Origin: Streptomyces diacarni
Lineage (GTDB): Bacteria; Actinomycetota; Actinomycetes; Streptomycetales; Streptomycetaceae
DNA length: 64,000 nt
Direction: 5' to 3'
NCBI RefSeq assembly: GCF_003323715.1
Contig: NZ_QOIN01000045.1
Location: 62,001 to 126,000 of the forward strand
Shown: in pieces, positions 12,726 through 22,467 of the stretch
Numbering within the stretch: position 1 is the first letter of the stretch
Layout: each line of letters starts with the position of its first letter
Notes under the pieces: model-generated
Told to the model about the DNA's origin: nothing
Database searches by the model: none
Seen by the model: the letters and a program-made list of their open reading frames with translations, nothing else
Made by a program: the position numbers and the translations under genes

Positions 12726-13526
12726 GTGATGGTCCGGTTTCAGGTCATCGGGACGGTCGAGGTCTCCGGTCCATCGGGCGCGTGCGCACTGCGGATGCCG
12801 CTTCGCGCCGCTCTGCTGACCGCTCTCGCCGTGGAGAGCAACTTCTGTGTTCCGACGGGTAAGTTGTTGTCAGTCCTGTGGGATGATGCGCCCGCCTCGG
12901 CCTTGGCGAATCTGCGTACCAATGTCGCGCACCTCCGTAAGTCTCTAGACGACGTGAGCCCCCGGCTCGCGGACCGGCTCATCACAGCCAGGGGAACCGG
13001 TTATCGGCTTCTCGTGCACGCCGGCGAACTCGACTTGGTGGAGTTCCGTTCCCTCGCGGCGGCCGCACGGGTACATCTCAAAGCGGGTAACGTCGCGAAG
13101 GCATGTGCACAGTCGCAGCAGGCGCTGGCTCTGTGGCGTGGCCCGTTCGGGGAGGGACTGCCCCGGACGCGTTGGCTGGAGGCTCACGCGGCCGGGCTGG
13201 AGAGTATGAGGATCCAGATCGTCGAAGACCTGTATGCCGCCCGTCTCCTGCTCGGTGACCATCTGCGGCTCAGCCACGACGCGGCGACCCTGCTCTCGGA
13301 CGAGCCGCACCGCGAACGGCCGTGGCTGGTCCTGATGGCGGTGCAGCAACTCTCGGGGGACTCTGCGCGCGCCATGGCAACGTTCCGGCGCTGCCGTACG
13401 CATTTCGCCCAGGCGCTCGGGATCGATCCTCCGTCCAGCAGCACCGAACTCCACCACGCGATCCTCGACCGGGACGATGCCCGAGTGCTCGACATCGTCC
13501 GACGTGACGTGGCCGGCGTCGCCTGA
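12726..13526 (+). CDS. AfsR/SARP-family transcriptional activator
   Basis: The 266-residue protein has the two-part SARP architecture: an OmpR-type winged helix (residues ~1-95, RMPLRAALLTALAVESN...ANLRTNVAHLRKSL...ITARGTGYRLLV) and a bacterial transcriptional activation domain (BTAD, ~100-245; VEFRSLAAAARVHL...QALALWRGPFGEGL). Single-domain SARPs of this length usually activate secondary-metabolite clusters. It uses unusual codons for the window, such as TTGTTGTCA, suggesting acquisition by transfer. It is convergent to the ABC/TPR/peptide operon with a 6-bp gap and is its likely activator. GTG 12726 or ATG 12729 can start it. Confidence 0.88.
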   Translation: MMVRFQVIGTVEVSGPSGACALRMPLRAALLTALAVESNFCVPTGKLLSVLWDDAPASALANLRTNVAHLRKSLDDVSPRLADRLITARGTGYRLLVHAGELDLVEFRSLAAAARVHLKAGNVAKACAQSQQALALWRGPFGEGLPRTRWLEAHAAGLESMRIQIVEDLYAARLLLGDHLRLSHDAATLLSDEPHRERPWLVLMAVQQLSGDSARAMATFRRCRTHFAQALGIDPPSSSTELHHAILDRDDARVLDIVRRDVAGVA

Positions 13527-13532
13527 CGGCAC

Positions 13533-16500
13533 TCACCCGACCGGTTCCTCTCGCGCGGCGGAGACGGTGATCCGCCGGTCGGCGAGGTCCTGGTTGGCCG
13601 TGCGATGCAGTACGGCGATGATCGCCGTGTGGGGCGCGGCACGGCGAACGGTGTCGAGCGCGGCGTGCTCGGCCTGCGCGTCCATGGCGGACGTCGCCTC
13701 GTCGAGGAACACCGCGCTGGGCCCGTCGGCGAACACTCGGGCGAGGTTCACCAGTTGCCTGTGCGTATGGCTGAGGTTCCGGAGAGTGTCTTCCGGCTCC
13801 GGCACGCTCGTCCCGGTCGCGGCGCACAGCTGGGCGAGCAGGACGGGCCCGTCAGGACACCCGCGGAGGAACGCGCGCACGGTCACCGGCAGGCGGGGGA
13901 TGTCCGCGTCCGCGTAGCGCAGTGCAGAGCGCGTGCGACTGCTCAGCACCGCAGGTTTCGCTCCGTTGAGCAGGACGGTGCCGTTCGCTGCGGCGTTGGC
14001 TCCGGCGAGCGTCTTGAGCAGGGTGCTCTTGCCGACCCCGGAGGGTCCGGTCAGTACCGTCAGGGAGCCGGGTTCGGCCACCAGGTCCAGCGGCTCCGGC
14101 CGGGGCAGCCCCTCGGGCATGAGGGGCTGGAGCCGCTGCGCGTGGACCGGGGGGCCACCGCCGGGGCGGGTCTCGTCCTCATACCGGAGGAAGCCGTCGG
14201 TCAGACACGCCAGATCCCGTGGTGTCTCACGCAGCAGCCGAGCTCGTGTCGGGAGGTCTGAGGAGCCGAGGAGCTCGGCCACGCGGCGGATGGCCAAAAG
14301 CGTGCCGTCGAACTCCAGCATGCCCTCCACGATGAGGGCGGCCCGCTGCGCGAGCGTGTAGGCGGCGTAGACGACGACGCCGGCCGCCAACGCCGTCGCC
14401 CCGAACGAGAGAACCACGGCCCACAAGGCGATCAGGAACACGCCGAGGCCGAGGATCTCCACCATGAGGAGAGTGCGCAACTGGACCCAGGACCTGCGGA
14501 GGATCCCTACGGCACGGACTGCGCCGAGGTCGTCGAACCGAGCCGACAACGCCCGCCGGAGTGCGGGAGAGGTGTGGAATCCAGGCGTTCCGAGCGCGGC
14601 GCGGGCGAAGTTCAGCAGGGGGTTGCGGCACGCGGCGGACAGATGGGACGAGGCGATCAGCGCGGAGCGGCCCCTGCGATAGGCGCCCACGCCGAGTAGC
14701 GCGATGAGTCCCAGCGGAAGCACGGTCCACCATCCGCCGGCGAGCACCGCGGCCGCGGCGGCAAGCATCGAGATCCACGCTGCGGCGAATTCCGCCAGTT
14801 GGAAGGGCACCCGTAGTTCGAGTGTGAAGAAGTCACGGCTCAGCCGCCCCGTCACCGAGGCGCTGCGCTCGTCCAGTCGCCCCGACAGCAGACCGCGGAC
14901 CAGGCCGGTGTGGACGCGGTCGATCGCGCCGATCGGTGTGCGCAGAGGCAGCCACGAACGCAGCCAGGCCACAACGACCCCCACCGCCACCAGAGCGGAC
15001 AGCCACCACAGGCCGCTGAAGTCCGTGATCCCGTGATCCACCAGGTACGCCAGTCCGTACTCCACCGCGACCAGTGCGCAGATGCACACAAGGACGGCGC
15101 CGATGGCCGACGGCGAGAACATGCCTCGTACGTTGCGGTAGAAGTCGCTGATCCGCAGCACCGGTGTGGGCGTATCGAACGCCGAGGCGTGTGGCGGAAC
15201 ATAGCCCTCCGGAAAGCCGTACCGCAGACCCGCGGACTGTAGCGCCGAGAGTCGCTGCTCCGGAACGGGAAGTCGCTGTCCCGGGAGAAATCCCCCCTCG
15301 CTGTCCGGTCCGATCGCTGCGAGCAGTTCAGCGGTCCGCACCGGTCCCAGGAGCTTTCGGACCGTTGTGCTCCGCGCCGACAACTCCTCAGGCCGGAACG
15401 AGACGATCTCCCCGTCGGCGACGATGAGGAAACGGTCGGCGCACCGTGTGATCTCCGGTCGCGTGGTGGTGCACATCCGGGTGCCGAGACCGGGTTCGTC
15501 GGCCATCACCCCGGCGGCGACCTGCGCGGCGCACTGTGGATCGAGCGGTGCGAACACGTCGTCGAGCAACAGCACGTCGGGCGCGAGGTACAGCGCCTGG
15601 GCCAGACTGACGCGCACGGTCTGACCGTCGGACAGCCGCTCGGTCGACGCGCTCAGCTCAGCGCCGTCACCCTCGGGACGGGCCGCGAGGTCGTCCAGCA
15701 ACCCGCTGCGGACGAGAGCCTGGCGGTAGCGGGCCTGTTCGACCGGTCGCCGCCACAGGGCCACCGTCTCGGCGATGGGGCCGTCGAACACCGGCTGGCC
15801 GCGTGCCACCAGGACCAGCTCCCCGCCGTGTGCGACCCTCCATTCAGGACAGCTCGTCGGCATTCCGGCGATCTGTTCCATCAAGCGGGTCGTTCGGCCC
15901 TGGTCCCGGCCCAGCACGACGACGCGTTCACCTGGCGCTACCGTGACGCCCCCTCCCCGTCCCGGACCGGTAGGCGAGATCGTGACCGTTCCCGGAGCCG
16001 GCGCGGAACCCGGGACAGGATCGGCCTCCTCCGGCGCCTCGGACAACAGCGCGGTGACCTCACGCCCGATGACCCAGGCGAACCGGATGTTGACGTACGT
16101 CGCGATGTTCTCGTCAACGGCCGACACCAGCATCCGCACCAGAACCAGCAGTGCAACACCCTCCCCCGCAGCCAAACCGGTGGAGAACAGGACCCCCGCC
16201 AGGACCGCCGCCCACACCACCACCTGGGGAAGCGCCTGCCGAAGGGCGTCCACCCACGCGTTGCTCCGCGCTCGGCGCAACAGCGTGCCGCGTTGCTCCT
16301 CTCGGACCGACGCGAACGCCGCGGTGACCACCGGTTCCAGGTGCTGCCTGCGCACCGCCTGCCACGCCGCGACCAGCCCGTCGATCAGCTCCGCCCGCCG
16401 GTGGTCCCCGGCGAGGTACTCCTTGGTGGTCGCGGTCATCCGGTCCACGAGAGTGCGCCCGACCAGCGCTCCCAGGCCCGCCACCGCAGCCACCCCGAAC

Positions 16501-17087
16501 CCGACGGCACCGAACCACACCAGCACGCACACCACGTAGGTCACGATCAGCGCGCTGTGGACGACGAACTCCGCTGCGAAAGCCGATTGCGACAGCTGCT
16601 GGGGATACTCCAGCAGGAAGGTCGTCGAGGACTTCTTCTGCCGGCCGAGCCAGCGGGGGTCGGTGCGTTGCAGCCGCCGGAAGATCAGCCGCTGGACGGA
16701 CAGGTCGATCCGGTACACCAACATGCGCACCTGCCAGGTGCTGGCCCAGCGCAACAGTGTGAAGGCCGTCGCCACGACGCTCAGCGCGACCGCCGGCCGC
16801 AACGCCGGCCCACCGTCGTTGACGCGGGAAAGCACATGATCGATCGCCCGCGGCACCAACGCCCCCGTGACGACCACTCCGATCCCGAGGAGAAGGTAGC
16901 CGGTCGCATGGCGCCAGAAATGCCGCAGCAGACCGAGCCACAACCCACGAGCCCCCACGTGGGCCGCCAGGTCCGCGATCCGGTCCCGCACGTCGAGTCC
17001 CGCTTGCGCGGCCTCCTCGGGACACAGGTCCCCAGGGGCGGCGTGGGCGCGCTCGTAGGCCTGCCTCAGATTCCGCCACACGCTCAC
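13533..17087 (-). CDS. Full-length double ABC exporter (TMD-NBD-TMD-NBD) with asymmetric nucleotide sites
   Basis: One 1184-residue chain holds two exporter halves: membrane domains at ~55-330 and ~655-925, nucleotide domains at ~370-590 and ~985-1184. NBD1 has a broken Walker A (GRDQGRTT, 393-400, no lysine), signature LSDGQ (485-489), Walker B LLLDD (506-510) and TTTR where the H-loop His belongs. NBD2 has an intact Walker A (GPSGVGKST, K1020), Walker B VFLDE and H1161, but a degenerate signature (LSHTH, 1105-1109). So one composite ATP site is intact and the other is dead on both faces. GTG 17087 overlaps the TPR stop. Likely cargo is the nearby peptide product. Confidence 0.88.
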   Translation of the reverse strand: MSVWRNLRQAYERAHAAPGDLCPEEAAQAGLDVRDRIADLAAHVGARGLWLGLLRHFWRHATGYLLLGIGVVVTGALVPRAIDHVLSRVNDGGPALRPAVALSVVATAFTLLRWASTWQVRMLVYRIDLSVQRLIFRRLQRTDPRWLGRQKKSSTTFLLEYPQQLSQSAFAAEFVVHSALIVTYVVCVLVWFGAVGFGVAAVAGLGALVGRTLVDRMTATTKEYLAGDHRRAELIDGLVAAWQAVRRQHLEPVVTAAFASVREEQRGTLLRRARSNAWVDALRQALPQVVVWAAVLAGVLFSTGLAAGEGVALLVLVRMLVSAVDENIATYVNIRFAWVIGREVTALLSEAPEEADPVPGSAPAPGTVTISPTGPGRGGGVTVAPGERVVVLGRDQGRTTRLMEQIAGMPTSCPEWRVAHGGELVLVARGQPVFDGPIAETVALWRRPVEQARYRQALVRSGLLDDLAARPEGDGAELSASTERLSDGQTVRVSLAQALYLAPDVLLLDDVFAPLDPQCAAQVAAGVMADEPGLGTRMCTTTRPEITRCADRFLIVADGEIVSFRPEELSARSTTVRKLLGPVRTAELLAAIGPDSEGGFLPGQRLPVPEQRLSALQSAGLRYGFPEGYVPPHASAFDTPTPVLRISDFYRNVRGMFSPSAIGAVLVCICALVAVEYGLAYLVDHGITDFSGLWWLSALVAVGVVVAWLRSWLPLRTPIGAIDRVHTGLVRGLLSGRLDERSASVTGRLSRDFFTLELRVPFQLAEFAAAWISMLAAAAAVLAGGWWTVLPLGLIALLGVGAYRRGRSALIASSHLSAACRNPLLNFARAALGTPGFHTSPALRRALSARFDDLGAVRAVGILRRSWVQLRTLLMVEILGLGVFLIALWAVVLSFGATALAAGVVVYAAYTLAQRAALIVEGMLEFDGTLLAIRRVAELLGSSDLPTRARLLRETPRDLACLTDGFLRYEDETRPGGGPPVHAQRLQPLMPEGLPRPEPLDLVAEPGSLTVLTGPSGVGKSTLLKTLAGANAAANGTVLLNGAKPAVLSSRTRSALRYADADIPRLPVTVRAFLRGCPDGPVLLAQLCAATGTSVPEPEDTLRNLSHTHRQLVNLARVFADGPSAVFLDEATSAMDAQAEHAALDTVRRAAPHTAIIAVLHRTANQDLADRRITVSAAREEPVG

Positions 17088-18616
17088 CTGGCGCTTGCTT
17101 CCCGCACCGCCGCCACGTTCTCCTGGACCAGCTGGGAGTCGGGGTAGCGCTCACCGAGCGCACGTACCCGCGCAGTGGTCTGGGCCGCAGCTTGCCCGTG
17201 GAGGAACGAGTCGGTCTCGATGCGCAGCAGCTCGGCCTCGGGGGCGACCTCTTCGTTCGCGCCGGAGACAGCCAGCCGGTCCAGCCAGATCTCGGCTTCG
17301 GCATACCGTTCGGCCAGGCATGCCGTGCGAATGCAGGTCACAAACGTGTCCTGATCCAAGGGGTCCAGCGCGACGGCCTTCGCGTAGTTCTCATAAGCGT
17401 CATCCACCTGCCCCAGGCCGAGCAGCACGTATCCGGTCAGCGCGTACAGGGGTGCTGCGTCCGTACACAGATCAGTGCCTCGCCGTAGTGCGCTCAGCGC
17501 TTCCTCGGGCTCTCCGCGGTTCGCGGAGAACTCCCCGAGGTCGAACCAGAACTCCGGGTACTGGGGGTCCAGCTCCACCGCTTCGCGCAGCATCTTGGCG
17601 GCGGCCTCGGCCGAGTCCGGCATCGAAGCGAGGACCCGCCCCAGGTTGTTGCAGAGAATGGACAGGGGGACCCGGTTCGCCTCTCGGTCCGCAGCGAGCT
17701 CTTCGATCGCCTTGCGCAGCGTGCGTGCGGCCTCGTCCTGGCGACCAGTGCGGACGAGCACAAGTGCCAGAGCGTTGCGGTTCATCACCCTTTCCAGCAC
17801 ACCATCGGCGGTGACCTCGGCGGACTGGCTTTTCCGCCATGCCTCGTCGAGGATTTCCTCCGCCCGCGCCAGGCTGCGCAGACTCGGCGGAAAGTGTCGC
17901 GCGTAGAGCAGGGACAGGCTGTAGCCGGCCTGGATCGCGAAGGGGCCGGTGTCGGCGAGGGCTATGCGCAGGCAGGTCTCCGCCATCCCGGTCCGATGCT
18001 GGGCCCTGTAGGCCATGGCCATCAGGTCCGCCGCGGCTGCCGGCAACGGGATTCCCGTCTCCAGCGCGCTGTCCGACAACCACGCCGCGGTCCAGGAGTC
18101 CCCGCAGGTCAAGTAGCGCACTACTCGCCTCCTGAACTCCGTCCAGTCCTCCGACGCCGCGAACTCGTCACGTATCCATGAGGAGTCACTGAGGACACGC
18201 ACCGTCTCCTCGTCGGCCATCGCCTCTGCCGCGCCCACTGCCGTCGCCGCATCCGGCCGTGCCCCGAAGGTCACCGAGACCGGCGCCACCTTTGCGAGGA
18301 CCCCGAAGAAGTCGAGGTCAGGCCGGCCCAGGTCGCCGGTCACCACCACGTCAAGGCCCTCGGGGTACTCCTCGGCCACGAGCCACCCGATGCGCCGGAC
18401 ACCGGCGAGGCAGCCCTGGCGCCCACGCCATCGGAACTGTCCCTTCACCGGCTGCCGGTCGTTCAGGCTGGCCGCGGCAGCGGCGGGAGCGTGAGTCACG
18501 AACCGGACGGCCTGTGCCGAAGCCGACCCCGCCTCGATCGGGAGGTGCCGCAAGAACGCCCGGGCAGAACTGAACGGTGCCACACCGCTCGGCACCACAA
18601 TCCGGCTACGTGCCAC
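17084..18616 (-). CDS. Tetratricopeptide-repeat protein of the mini-peptide/ABC locus
   Basis: This 510-residue protein has an N-terminal region without recognisable domain (~1-230) and a TPR-like C-terminal half, clearest in EAVELDPQYPEFWFDLGEFSANRGEPEEAL, DAAPLYALTGYVLLGLGQVDDAYENYAKAVALDPLD and the following repeat (~residues 340-450). GTG 18616 is chosen for the AAGGGA seven bases upstream; ATG 18643 lacks a ribosome site. It lies between a 24-codon peptide gene and a double ABC exporter, with a GTGA overlap to the exporter. It may be a scaffold or chaperone for peptide maturation or export; no catalytic motif is visible. Confidence 0.8.
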   Translation of the reverse strand: MARSRIVVPSGVAPFSSARAFLRHLPIEAGSASAQAVRFVTHAPAAAAASLNDRQPVKGQFRWRGRQGCLAGVRRIGWLVAEEYPEGLDVVVTGDLGRPDLDFFGVLAKVAPVSVTFGARPDAATAVGAAEAMADEETVRVLSDSSWIRDEFAASEDWTEFRRRVVRYLTCGDSWTAAWLSDSALETGIPLPAAAADLMAMAYRAQHRTGMAETCLRIALADTGPFAIQAGYSLSLLYARHFPPSLRSLARAEEILDEAWRKSQSAEVTADGVLERVMNRNALALVLVRTGRQDEAARTLRKAIEELAADREANRVPLSILCNNLGRVLASMPDSAEAAAKMLREAVELDPQYPEFWFDLGEFSANRGEPEEALSALRRGTDLCTDAAPLYALTGYVLLGLGQVDDAYENYAKAVALDPLDQDTFVTCIRTACLAERYAEAEIWLDRLAVSGANEEVAPEAELLRIETDSFLHGQAAAQTTARVRALGERYPDSQLVQENVAAVREASAR

Positions 18617-18652
18617 TTCAGGTTCCCTTCGTGTCGGGTGCATGCTGGGGAG

Positions 18653-18688
18653 CGGCCGTGCGCGTGACGGTAGCCACGCACACGGCCG
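18653..18688 (-). terminator. Strong stem-loop between the mini-peptide and TPR genes
   Basis: Left arm 18653-18666 and right arm 18675-18688 pair over 14 bp with one mismatch around an 8-nt loop (ACGGTAGC on +). No U-run follows. It sits 21 bases past the peptide stop and ~37 bases before the TPR start, so it may partly terminate transcription and keep the peptide mRNA more abundant than the downstream genes, as in many peptide operons. Confidence 0.6.
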
Positions 18689-18708
18689 GAACTTCATCAC
18701 CGGCGATG

Positions 18709-18783
18709 TCAGGCGCAGTGCTTGTAGCCCTCGTCCTGACGCACAGAACTCGGGGACTTCGCCGTACCCTTGATCATCTTCAT
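18709..18783 (-). CDS. Candidate 24-residue precursor or signal peptide
   Basis: The 25-codon frame begins MKMIKG, runs through a Ser/Pro/Lys-rich middle and ends YKHCA-stop, with one Cys next to last. It is upstream of the TPR and ABC exporter genes on the same strand and downstream of a long non-coding leader. GAGGGAGG lies ~11 bases before the ATG. A tiny peptide, a structured intercistronic stem-loop, a dedicated exporter and a SARP are the usual parts of a ribosomal peptide locus. No modifying enzyme (LanB, YcaO, radical SAM) is visible, so it might instead be a secreted signal. The reading frame could also be fortuitous. Confidence 0.5.
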   Translation of the reverse strand: MKMIKGTAKSPSSVRQDEGYKHCA

Positions 18784-19012
18784 GGCCGCATACACCTCCC
18801 TCGCGCTTCTTGCTGACTGGTGGTCGCAGAAGCCGCATGCGACGGGATCGTCGTCCGCGGCAACACCTCAGATCGTGCCCGGGCAGCGCACTTTCCCCGT
18901 ATCGACCGCGCACCGCGGGCGCCCGCGCCCACCCCGGCCTCGACAGGACGACGTGAGGATGCTCGCTCCACCGCGCCAGGGGGCTCGTTCCGCTGCACGT
19001 GTGCGCCCGGCG

Positions 19013-19079: not shown

Positions 19080-19916
19080 ATGACCGAGTACCTCGCCGTC
19101 GACGAGGGCACGCTCGCCTACGAGGTGACGGGGGAAGGACCACTGCTCGTCCTCGCACACGGCATGGGCGACAGCCGCGCCGCGTACCGCGCCCTGACCC
19201 CGCACTTGGTGGCCGCCGGCTACCGGGTCGCGGCGGTCGACCTGCGCGGCTGCGGCGAGTCCGACACCGCATGGCCCGCCTGGACCCGCACCGCCCTCGC
19301 CGGCGACCTGCTCGCCCTGATCCGCCACCTGGGCGGCCCCGCCGTACTCGTCGGCCACTCGGTCTCCGGCGGCGCCGCCACCATCGCCGCGGCACAGGAG
19401 CCCTCGCTGATCACCGAGGTCGTCGAGTTGGCACCGTTCACCCGCAAGCAGTCCATAAGCCTCGCGGACCTGCGGGTGAAACGCTTCCGGCGCGGCATGC
19501 TGCGGCTGTTGGGCACGGCGATGTTCGGCAGCGTACGGCTCTGGCGCTCGTACCTCGACGAGGCGTACCCCGGCGTGAAACCCGCCCACTGGCCGGCGCG
19601 CCTCGACCGCGTCGGCACCCTGCTGCGCGAACCGGGCCGGATGAAAGCCCTGCAGAACATGGGCCGCAGCGCGCCCACCGACGCCGGCGCGCACCTCGGC
19701 GACGTCCGCTGCCCCGTCCTGGTCGTCATGGGCACACTCGACCCCGACTGGGCCGACCCGCACGCCGAGGGCTCGGCGATCGTCGACGCCCTGCCGGACG
19801 GCCTCGGCCGCCTCGAGATGATCGAAGGCGCGGGACACTACCCGCACGACCAGTTCCCCGACCAGGTGGCCTCCCTGATGCTCGCCTTCCTCCACACGGA
19901 CACCGCCCGTGCCTAG
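19080..19916 (+). CDS. Alpha/beta-fold hydrolase
   Basis: The 278-residue protein has the alpha/beta-hydrolase triad: nucleophile S94 in GHSVSGG, acid in MGTLDPDW (~residue 225) and His in GAGHYPHDQF (~residue 256); HGMG near residue 27 is the oxyanion loop. GGGGGAT precedes the ATG. It overlaps the TetR gene by 8 bp and shares its operator. Hydrolase-TetR pairs often act on the inducing ester, lactone or antibiotic; the substrate here is unknown. Confidence 0.85.
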   Translation: MTEYLAVDEGTLAYEVTGEGPLLVLAHGMGDSRAAYRALTPHLVAAGYRVAAVDLRGCGESDTAWPAWTRTALAGDLLALIRHLGGPAVLVGHSVSGGAATIAAAQEPSLITEVVELAPFTRKQSISLADLRVKRFRRGMLRLLGTAMFGSVRLWRSYLDEAYPGVKPAHWPARLDRVGTLLREPGRMKALQNMGRSAPTDAGAHLGDVRCPVLVVMGTLDPDWADPHAEGSAIVDALPDGLGRLEMIEGAGHYPHDQFPDQVASLMLAFLHTDTARA

Positions 19917-20490
19917 GGCAGGGCTGGACCCGGCGGCCGTGGTCGCGGCCGGCGCCGCCCTCGCCGACGAGGTGGGACTCGCCCACCTGACGATGGGCTC
20001 CCTGGCCGAACGGCTGGGCGTACGCACCCCGTCCCTGTACAAACACGTGAGCGGCCAGGACGACCTCAACCGGCGCATCGCCGCCCTGGCGTTGAGCGAG
20101 GCCGCCGACGCCGTCGGCGGCGCCGTCCAGGGATACGCCGGCCGCGAAGCGCTGGCGGCCGCGGCCCGCGCCTTCCGCGCCTTCGTCCTGGAGCACCCGG
20201 GGCGGTACGCCGCGACGATCGGCGTGGAACCGTCCGGCCCCGACGACCCACTGGCCACCGCGAGCCGGCGGCTGCTCGCCGCGTTCGTGGCGGTACTGCG
20301 CGGCTACGAGATCGCGGAGCCCGACGTGGACCACGCCCTGCGCATGCTCCGCAGCCTCTGCCACGGCTTCGCCACACTGCAGGCGGCGGACGGCTTCCAG
20401 TGGAGCGCCGACATCGACCAGAGCTTCGAGTGGCTGATCACCTTCGCCGACCGAGGCCTGCGCGTCATGTCAGGCGCGGGCGCCGTGTGA
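19909..20490 (+). CDS. TetR/AcrR-family regulator (WHG-type C-terminal domain)
   Basis: The 193-residue protein has an N-terminal TetR HTH (VVAAGAALADEVGLAHLTMGSLAERLGVRTPSLYKHVSG, ~residues 11-48) and a C-terminal ligand domain of the WHG type (HPGRYAATIGVEP...LCHGFATLQAADGF). The GTG start overlaps the hydrolase stop. It probably represses its own operon by binding the palindrome at 19035-19049. Confidence 0.87.
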   Translation: MPRAGLDPAAVVAAGAALADEVGLAHLTMGSLAERLGVRTPSLYKHVSGQDDLNRRIAALALSEAADAVGGAVQGYAGREALAAAARAFRAFVLEHPGRYAATIGVEPSGPDDPLATASRRLLAAFVAVLRGYEIAEPDVDHALRMLRSLCHGFATLQAADGFQWSADIDQSFEWLITFADRGLRVMSGAGAV

Positions 20491-20752
20491 GGCCCGCGCC
20501 GCAGGGCGGCGACCGCGCCAGGCGAGCGGACCGCGCGACGGCCCACCTGGTGAGCGGGCTCGCACCCGAACAGCAGAACCACCGGCCGTGCTTGTGCGTG
20601 TTCTGCTGCGAGATGTCCAACAGCGCCTGGACGACCACCGGCTGCCACAGGTGGGCGAACCGGACTGAGCCCCGAAGCCTGTCGACCCTTCATTCACTGT
20701 AGTAACTTCGGGTGACCGAACTGCGGGCAGAGAGCTGAGAGATTCGTTGCGT
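20491..20752. other. Intergenic region before the lipoprotein gene
   Basis: This 262-bp gap follows the TetR gene and precedes the lipoprotein. A more AT-rich stretch near 20690-20715 (TTCATTCACTGTAGTAACTT) is the likeliest promoter of the downstream pair. A short frame ending near 20668 has no coding character. No other feature seen. Confidence 0.4.
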
Positions 20753-21409
20753 ATGAACAAGCAGGCGAGTACAGCGATGTGGACCGCAGGAGCCGTTGCC
20801 GCGGCCCTGCTGTTGGGAGCATGCGGAAGCGGCGACGACTCCCAGGACGAGATCAAGGGCGCGGGCGACAGCAAGCCGTCGAAGTCCGCCCCGGCATCCG
20901 ACTCGAAGAGTTCAGCCCCGCGGGGGGATGAACGACCCCAGTACAAGCTGGCCGAAGACGCCAAGAACGTCTTCGAGGACACCAAGACGGGTGACCCGAA
21001 GAAGGACGAGGTCGTAGCGGACAACCAGCGCCGGATCAATCTCACCGACCGGATCGTCACCACGGGCAAGGACGCGGACGATCTGAAGCTGTACGCCAAG
21101 GGCCAGGCCTTCATCGCCGCGAGCAAGTACATCTCGACGTACGCCGACGACGACTACAGCTGGGCCGGCACAGCTCGGTACTACAACCACGAAGTCGAGT
21201 TCCTCAACGGCGCCACCGCCAAGATCACATACTGCGTCGACGACTCGAAAGCGAACGACAAGAACCTCAAGACGGGGAAGGTCGAACGATACGACTCCGG
21301 CGACGGGAGGGACACGCTGGAGACCAGCACTGTACGACGCAGCAAGGACAAGATCTGGCAATCGTATTCCAGCAGAACAAAACGGGAGGCAGAGGAATGC
21401 GAAAGATAG
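20753..21409 (+). CDS. Hypothetical secreted lipoprotein
   Basis: This 218-residue protein has a lipoprotein signal peptide with lipobox LLGAC (about residue 23), a disordered Ser/Lys/Asp-rich spacer, and a folded domain starting around RPQYKLAEDAKNVFED. The core (LYAKGQAFIAASKYISTYADDD...YYNHEVEFLNGATAKITYCVDDSK) resembles NTF2-like accessory lipoproteins, though I cannot confirm a family. ATG 20753 is preferred over the TTG six bases upstream. It overlaps the next gene by 13 bp, so the two are probably made together and function at the cell surface. Confidence 0.75.
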   Translation: MNKQASTAMWTAGAVAAALLLGACGSGDDSQDEIKGAGDSKPSKSAPASDSKSSAPRGDERPQYKLAEDAKNVFEDTKTGDPKKDEVVADNQRRINLTDRIVTTGKDADDLKLYAKGQAFIAASKYISTYADDDYSWAGTARYYNHEVEFLNGATAKITYCVDDSKANDKNLKTGKVERYDSGDGRDTLETSTVRRSKDKIWQSYSSRTKREAEECER

Positions 21410-22467
21410 CGGAGTCGTGCGTCGCACTGTGCTTGATCGGGGGAGTCTGCCTGTCGATGGCTGGTCCGGCCCATGCCGACAGGAAGCACAGGGAAAAGGC
21501 TTCCGGTGCAAACGACCACGGTGACATCGTCACCGAGGTCTCCCGCGTGCAGATCACCGGTGGCGGTGACACCGGCAAGGACACCGTCAAGCTGACTCCG
21601 GAGAACTCCAACTGGGAGCCGCCGGCGTGCTGGTATGAGCCGAAGACGTCGCCCAAGGAGCTCAAGGAGAAGATCGAGAGCGCGAAGCCCGAGAAGCGGA
21701 AGCCGAAGAAGAAAAAGAAGCCGGAGACGATCTTCGACGAGCTGGAGGAGAGCAACCAGGACGCCGCGGACGCGGTGTCCAACCAGGTGGTCGGTCTCTA
21801 CGAGGACTACTACCAGACGGACAAGTACGAGGACTACAACATCGACAAGCAGGGCGAGGGCATGTTCTGGGAAGGGGTGAGGAACCCCGACCGCGCTGAC
21901 GACCCCGACTCCTACAAGTGCAGCCAGCACGCGTACTGGGTGCCGGACGGTGAAACCCCGAAGGACGTGCCTCTCGCCGTCAGCCCCAAGGTGCTGGCCG
22001 AGTACGCCTACGAGCGGCTGCCCATCCCGCGCACGGAAATATCACTGAATCCCAAGGGTAAGCAGACGGTCAATCTCGATACCTGGGTGTGGGCCGACAA
22101 GAAGAGGTTCAAGAAGGTGAGTGTGACGGCCTCGCTGAAGAATCCCGCCATCTCCGCCACCACCACCGCCGAGCCCGTCTCCCTGACTCTCGAACCGGGT
22201 ACCGAGGATGCCAGGACGTATCCGGGTTCGGGCACGTGCAAGCTCGGAGAGTCCTACTCCGCGGGTAAGAAGGATCAGACACCGCCGTGCGGTGTCCGCT
22301 ATCTCCGCGCCACCAGCAAGAACGGCACCTATCCTCTCAAGGCCACTCTCACCTGGGAGATTTCCTGGAAGGGGTCCGACGGAAGCGGCGCCACGCTGCC
22401 GGCGGGCACTTTCAGCACCACCGAGGACCTCACCGTCAAGGAGATCCAGTCGATCGTGCGCGACTGA
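21397..22467 (+). CDS. Hypothetical secreted protein (356 aa) coupled to the lipoprotein
   Basis: The protein begins with a classical signal peptide (MRKIAES...GPAHA-D, cleavage near residue 27). The mature part has a Lys-rich stretch (residues ~95-110), a Trp/Cys-containing segment (NWEPPACWYEP) and a C-terminal beta-rich half with paired cysteines (GTCKLGES, PPCGVRYLRA) and repeated Thr/Lys beta-strand patterns. I do not recognise a catalytic domain. The 13-bp overlap with the lipoprotein implies coupled translation. Codon use, with many AAG codons, is less GC-biased than in neighbouring housekeeping genes. Confidence 0.78.
   Translation: MRKIAESCVALCLIGGVCLSMAGPAHADRKHREKASGANDHGDIVTEVSRVQITGGGDTGKDTVKLTPENSNWEPPACWYEPKTSPKELKEKIESAKPEKRKPKKKKKPETIFDELEESNQDAADAVSNQVVGLYEDYYQTDKYEDYNIDKQGEGMFWEGVRNPDRADDPDSYKCSQHAYWVPDGETPKDVPLAVSPKVLAEYAYERLPIPRTEISLNPKGKQTVNLDTWVWADKKRFKKVSVTASLKNPAISATTTAEPVSLTLEPGTEDARTYPGSGTCKLGESYSAGKKDQTPPCGVRYLRATSKNGTYPLKATLTWEISWKGSDGSGATLPAGTFSTTEDLTVKEIQSIVRD

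Follow-up and report, generated by a model that had tools for sequence, protein, structure and literature searches.

The Streptomyces diacarni locus described here is, judged from its sequence, a divergent member of a group of operons in which a gene for a very small peptide is paired with a gene for a TPR protein. We think it reasonably likely that the product of this locus is a very short ribosomal peptide, bound by the TPR protein and exported by an ABC transporter, with a SARP regulator in control. The locus lies in the window, the whole stretch of 64,000 nucleotides that we analysed, and its anatomy, read directly from the DNA, is as follows.

12726-13526, + strand: small SARP regulator (Trans_reg_C and BTAD domains), starting at GTG 12726 or ATG 12729
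13527-13532, no strand: gap of 6 bases between the stop codons of the convergent SARP and exporter genes, seen in the sequence
13533-17087, - strand: fused double ABC exporter of 1184 aa, assigned by Pfam and by a relative in Bdellovibrionales (L036)
17084-17087, - strand: GTGA overlap of the TPR stop and the exporter start, seen in the sequence
17084-18616, - strand: TPR protein of 510 aa with a putative STAND remnant, assigned by Pfam TPR matches, family alignments and a structure model
About 18653-18688, - strand: hairpin with a 16-bp stem and without a U-run, between the peptide and TPR genes, from folding against shuffles
18709-18783, - strand: putative precursor peptide gene, 24 aa, MKMIKGTAKSPSSVRQDEGYKHCA; start motif and position match the family
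18795-18800, - strand: Shine-Dalgarno sequence GGGAGG, 11 bases ahead of the peptide ATG, a spacing at the long end

The original prediction had named a SARP, a 24-residue peptide, a TPR protein and a double ABC exporter, with the last two genes overlapping at GTGA and the SARP converging to within six bases of the exporter, and all of this is present. The open frame of the TPR gene reaches 18913; we prefer GTG 18616 on the basis of family alignments and a ribosome site. The SARP matches BTAD at E 4e-31 and Trans_reg_C at E 2e-9 in Pfam, and is one of 15 BTAD proteins in the host genome (7.66 Mb). Codon use is less GC-biased than in the surroundings, as had been proposed: GC3 is 0.78 for the SARP, 0.85 for the ABC exporter, 0.83 for the TPR gene and 0.80 for the peptide gene, whereas the median for the window is 0.92. 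Pfam and NCBIfam scans of the SARP, ABC, TPR and peptide products found no RiPP modifying enzyme or RRE in the locus, in keeping with the predicted lack of a known peptide-modifying enzyme, and no Rfam family was found within the window.

A tblastn search with the window TPR protein returned distant relatives on plasmids of Klebsiella, Pantoea and Streptobacillus that align over the full length, and directly upstream of each of these TPR genes lies a tiny, unlisted frame (MKMIKRKPAAKRVDFSVMYNR, MKMIKRKPSAKRVDFSVMYGGTN and MKKLIKKKIELKKVNFSVMYCYKDGCLAF). Further plasmid members with a peptide come from Listeria, Pantoea soli, Priestia and Bacillus badius. Scanning 84,980 species genomes with family alignments (like our other genome searches, a sample of species) yielded 49 loci; member peptides include MKLIKAAPAAKKVTFSVMYNAPV and similar sequences in Streptomyces, MQLKIEKPKEQKIDFAVLYGGKATTI in Arthrobacter and MKIKISKIRRPKVNLGVMYCYKSGEIA in Bdellovibrionales. 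Conserved peptides occur in Streptomyces, Arthrobacter, Bacillus, Seinonella, Vibrio, Providencia and Bdellovibrionales, and on plasmids of Klebsiella, Pantoea, Listeria, Streptobacillus and Priestia. We found no TPR relatives in viral contigs and phages, and no relatives of the Klebsiella cluster in E. coli genomes searched in near mode.

The pairing of peptide and TPR genes is observed directly. We counted as a peptide gene any frame of 18-32 aa with a ribosome site and an M[KRQE][KLMIT][IVLMK] start, positioned no more than 450 bases ahead of either the TPR gene or the gene preceding it. Such a gene, of the MK-[KLM]-[IV]-K type, precedes the TPR gene at 46 of 65 family loci and precedes 1 of 353 other genes of these loci, used as controls; the rule was formulated with the peptides already known and allows two upstream places on the family side versus one for controls, which cannot account for the difference. 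The window peptide (MKMI...) has the start, the length and the ribosome site of the rule. A looser scan finds more peptides, and about ten family loci have none in either scan. Among close relatives, codon changes at conserved peptide residues are synonymous, indicating that the peptides are selected as protein.

The hairpin between the two genes is likewise conserved. In the window, the peptide-TPR hairpin has an MFE of -45.9, compared with -35.4 +/- 3.4 for shuffled sequences (z -3.1), and none of 200 shuffles was as stable, which bears out the strong stem-loop that had been predicted; the spacer alone gives z -3.4. A spacer hairpin (z <= -2) is present in 19 of the 22 loci tested, from several phyla and with unrelated sequences. 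No terminator-like site was found at the window hairpin. As far as sequence comparison goes, an operon that runs from tiny basic peptide through hairpin to TPR protein occurs repeatedly. The downstream partners vary: an MFS exporter with an S9-like hydrolase, a membrane protein that is PqqD/RRE-like and M50-like, the double ABC exporter in the window and L036, or nothing. The original prediction of a minimal, undescribed ribosomal-peptide or signalling locus largely stands, since peptide, hairpin and TPR gene recur in at least five phyla and are unnamed in the curated families and open-access papers found; the exporter, however, is not a constant part of it.

Peptides of the FSVMY subtype read ...K[KR]VxFSVMY..., with the core pattern K[KR]-[VI]-x-F-[SA]-V-M-Y. 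Their usual operon order is peptide, TPR gene (product about 500 aa), MFS exporter and S9-like hydrolase with GxSxG, and most complete members of this branch have an exporter downstream, of MFS, ABC-2 or double ABC type. A member with the conserved core is also present in a soil Streptomyces, S. olivaceus NRRL B-3009. Two loci on Priestia and Bacillus badius plasmids (L024 5142-9207 and L033 5257-9321) carry a 77-aa frame and an O-methyltransferase gene between the TPR and MFS genes, so that their product may be methylated. Four loci of the group (L119 6351-8308, L120 6844-9020, L121 6298-8347 and L122 6578-8393) consist of peptide and TPR gene alone, with unrelated neighbours and no adjacent exporter or protease. 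A locus on a Streptomyces finlayi plasmid (L123 5829-6984), near a gamma-butyrolactone gene pair, keeps the leader MKLVKASP, has lost the core and has a shortened TPR frame joined to a DUF6235 stretch; it is apparently a decayed copy.

A sister branch has larger TPR proteins (560-760 aa) and is found in Streptomyces, Micromonospora, Kutzneria, Brevibacillus, myxobacteria and others. Here a peptide of the form MKKIxVRKAGPVRLTSxACSxY... is followed by a membrane protein of about 410 aa and then by the TPR gene, or stands with the TPR gene alone. HExxH is invariant in the membrane protein; Pfam Peptidase_M50 matches 10 of its 15 members (best E 1e-5) and PqqD matches one (E 0.017). Its only PDB matches, weak at E about 0.1, are TbiB1 and TfuB1, both lasso-peptide RRE proteins. 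Given this RRE-like and M50-like partner, the sister-branch peptide is very probably a recognised and processed substrate. No such partner occurs in the window and none was detected in its genome, in a search run without a positive control.

Sister peptides beside a PqqD/RRE-like HExxH protein and a 710-aa TPR protein occur at L115 4524-4604, L117 10526-10606 and L094 10237-10317, in L052, L055, L062 and L064, and in others; among these, a SARP is often near and the cores are variable, often with Cys and aromatic residues. In Myxococcus, Corallococcus and Thermoanaerobaculum (L049 3020-3079, L050 4638-4700 and L063 3782-3907), the peptides run ...KTTAA and then into tails containing Cys or Trp (VYHEWCIVTAATN, YYDIWCILTGAGAN and SYCCGCPGMPPCIPWDPDACPVGH). 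Of 31 loci of the RRE/M50 type, 15 have a SARP at a distance of up to about 7 kb, where the density of BTAD genes in the S. diacarni genome (15 in all) would predict about 3%; the association is only suggestive because related loci are not independent. None of 25 FSVMY-type loci has a SARP nearby.

The window TPR protein is homologous to the family from end to end and carries the motifs YxLSxLYxRH and NRN. In the tree it falls in the FSVMY branch, where it and the L036 protein are sisters (98/95) on long branches. The core, the MFS exporter and the S9-like hydrolase of that subtype are all absent from the window; L036 also has a double ABC exporter instead. The window peptide keeps the MKMIK start, the length and the place, lacks the FSVMY core, and has no exact copy in 391 other genomes of the order; hence we file the locus as a divergent group member and not as an FSVMY peptide. 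In sequence, the peptide resembles its relatives only at its two ends, the leader-like start and the KHC[AG]-like terminus; two standalone sister-branch peptides end similarly, in PKHVG and PRHCG, compared with YKHCA in the window. No close relative was found in the sample of species genomes searched, and its membership therefore rests on position, hairpin and leader. The original prediction had made conservation of the peptide frame beside the TPR-exporter pair its check, and this came out divided: position, length, leader-like start and hairpin are kept, and the core sequence is an orphan. No NCBIfam model matched any peptide tested, with filters that may miss 20-mers.

In the window TPR protein, Pfam finds nothing but TPR matches. 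Its AlphaFold model (pLDDT 85, pTM 0.82) has a superhelix at residues 134-509 behind a small alpha/beta domain; the closest resemblance of the superhelix is to peptide-binding TPRs, LGN for example. Residues 1-120 are degenerate AAA_16-like sequence in which the P-loop is absent; in relatives, the AAA_16 match of this domain is weak (E 1e-4) and covers the second half of the model only. A Foldseek search with the N-domain gave no significant match, and in a structural comparison (VIA) STAND chains (Dark, CED-4) came top with a Z of only about 5. From these models, the N-domain is best read as a dead STAND remnant. No DNA-binding domain was found in the protein.

The exporter is asymmetric, as had been predicted: NBD1 has the signature LSDGQ and no Walker A, and NBD2 has the Walker A sequence GPSGVGKS and a degenerate signature, LSHTH. 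Pfam finds two ABC_tran stretches, only one recognisable ABC_membrane and no Peptidase_C39 domain. L036:8193-11273, from Bdellovibrionales, is a full-length relative, its N half matching the N half at E 3e-10 and its C half the C half at E 4e-7. Among the loci examined, only the window and L036 have this fused double ABC exporter, and their ATP sites have decayed alike. No close exporter relative was found in plasmids (E <= 1e-20) or in 150 genomes of the same genus, the latter a weak absence in that only 8 of about 100-230 candidates per genome were scored.

Upstream of the operon, an alpha/beta hydrolase gene and a TetR gene form a pair (19080-20490) that diverges from it, has scattered relatives elsewhere and is probably unrelated to it. 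We considered the hydrolase (19080-19913) as the missing S9 partner and rejected it: it is a 278-aa Abhydrolase_6 protein, encoded on the opposite strand and paired with its own TetR gene. The flanking genes did not define an empty insertion site: in 40 relatives no match to the HD gene reached E <= 1e-40, and the hydrolase had only scattered ones. Farther on, at 20747-22467, are two overlapping genes of low GC (0.61-0.63) without a Pfam match; both starts look like secretion signals.

We propose the following mechanism. The SARP would switch the block on, and the 24-codon gene would give a precursor whose basic start, MKMIK..., serves as recognition segment, with the hairpin causing peptide to be made in excess over the products of the downstream genes. 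The groove of the TPR superhelix would bind the nascent or finished peptide, shield the cell from it and hand it to the exporter, which would work with a single competent ATP site formed by the Walker A of NBD2 and the signature of NBD1. The C-terminal part (about RQDEGYKHCA) would be the variable, active end, which a host protease might trim before it acts outside the cell, either as a signal or against other bacteria. We infer translation of the window peptide, its binding, export, trimming and activity from this arrangement; the peptides of the group are probably exported signals or antibacterial peptides.

An unlikely alternative is signalling of the quorum type: the exported peptide would re-enter the cell and be detected by the TPR protein, much as by RNPP receptors, and the TPR protein would then act on the SARP, giving an AfsR layout divided over separate genes. 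The RNPP family offers established examples of TPR receptors for short linear peptides, the TPR protein would pair a STAND remnant with TPRs as AfsR does and adjoins a free SARP, and SARPs are common near the sister RRE/M50 subtype. Weak RNPP_C matches in relatives L037 and L083 (E 0.018 and 0.025, below cut-off; the window protein has no such Pfam match) point the same way. However, most relatives have no SARP nearby, the FSVMY core hardly varies between phyla, as opposed to signals that diversify, and the locus offers neither a DNA-binding domain on the TPR protein nor an importer.

Two further explanations seem to us quite improbable. The short frame might be the leader peptide of a translational attenuator: stalling on it would unfold the hairpin and allow expression of the TPR and exporter genes, a mechanism known from antibiotic-resistance operons. 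The order of short frame, hairpin and exporter would suit this, as would a conserved stretch followed by a variable tail, and the sister motif IRKAGPVRLT (L115 and relatives) recalls the end of SecM, IRAGPQRLT. Yet AGP is not kept in the sister subtype, being replaced by TGS, AGS, TTP, TET or VET, so that the likeness to SecM is probably coincidence; moreover, the RRE-like and M50-like protein needs a real substrate, the cores vary and contain Cys and aromatic residues, and a terminator-like site was not found. Alternatively, the TPR-exporter pair could be genuine and the window peptide gene drifted or without function, a reading suggested by a core unlike that of all relatives, by the long branches and by the apparently decayed copy in S. 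finlayi. Against decay, all window frames are intact, the TPR signature residues (RH, NRN) and the one ATP site of the exporter are kept, and the hairpin and ribosome site are present. Synthesis and export of a TPR-bound peptide is our preferred reading.

Tentatively, and at a little less than even confidence, we suggest that the group is a new class of ribosomal peptides, with precursors of 20-30 aa that have no classical leader and depend on a dedicated dead-STAND TPR protein in place of an RRE and modifying enzyme, spread over plasmids and chromosomes of at least five phyla; the window would be its SARP-linked double-ABC subtype with a new core. We found no published description of the group in the open-access literature, and no curated family names the peptide or the TPR protein. 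The peptides are not listed in the public gene tables, themselves incomplete, of the Klebsiella, Pantoea, Listeria, Streptobacillus, Priestia and B. badius plasmids. Because its members are too short for routine annotation, a family of secreted peptides present in several phyla has apparently been overlooked. A search for a tiny basic frame, a hairpin and a STAND-remnant TPR protein would give dozens of precursor-core pairs at once, and raises the question of whether a TPR protein alone can take the place of an RRE and modifying enzyme for an exported peptide.

Several known systems resemble the group in part. RRE-guided RiPP precursors with M50-type peptidases share a short basic leader-like start, a variable C-terminus and a dedicated partner, and the sister subtype also has a PqqD/RRE-like and M50-like protein; the group differs in its precursors of only 20-30 aa, in having no known modifying enzyme and in the TPR protein as constant partner, and the window and its branch have no RRE. 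Double-glycine bacteriocin exporters carry a C39 domain and act on a GG leader, whereas the window exporter and peptide have neither, the peptide containing no GG. Operons of the microcin C type comprise a tiny peptide, an MFS exporter and a serine peptidase, much as the FSVMY-type clusters, often plasmid-borne, combine a tiny peptide, an MFS exporter and an S9-like hydrolase; in place of the adenylating enzyme there is a TPR protein, and in the window operon the exporter is of ABC type and a hydrolase is missing. RNPP systems (Rap/Phr, PlcR/PapR, NprR/NprX) also pair a TPR protein with a short peptide gene, but here the peptide gene lies upstream with a hairpin and encodes no signal peptide, and the TPR protein has a putative dead STAND remnant and no DNA-binding or phosphatase part. 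Finally, AfsR is a SARP-NOD-TPR regulator in one chain (PMC10936776). The likeness lies in a SARP and a STAND-TPR protein side by side; in the window these are separate genes, the STAND part lacks the working P-loop of AfsR, and a peptide and an exporter are linked to them.
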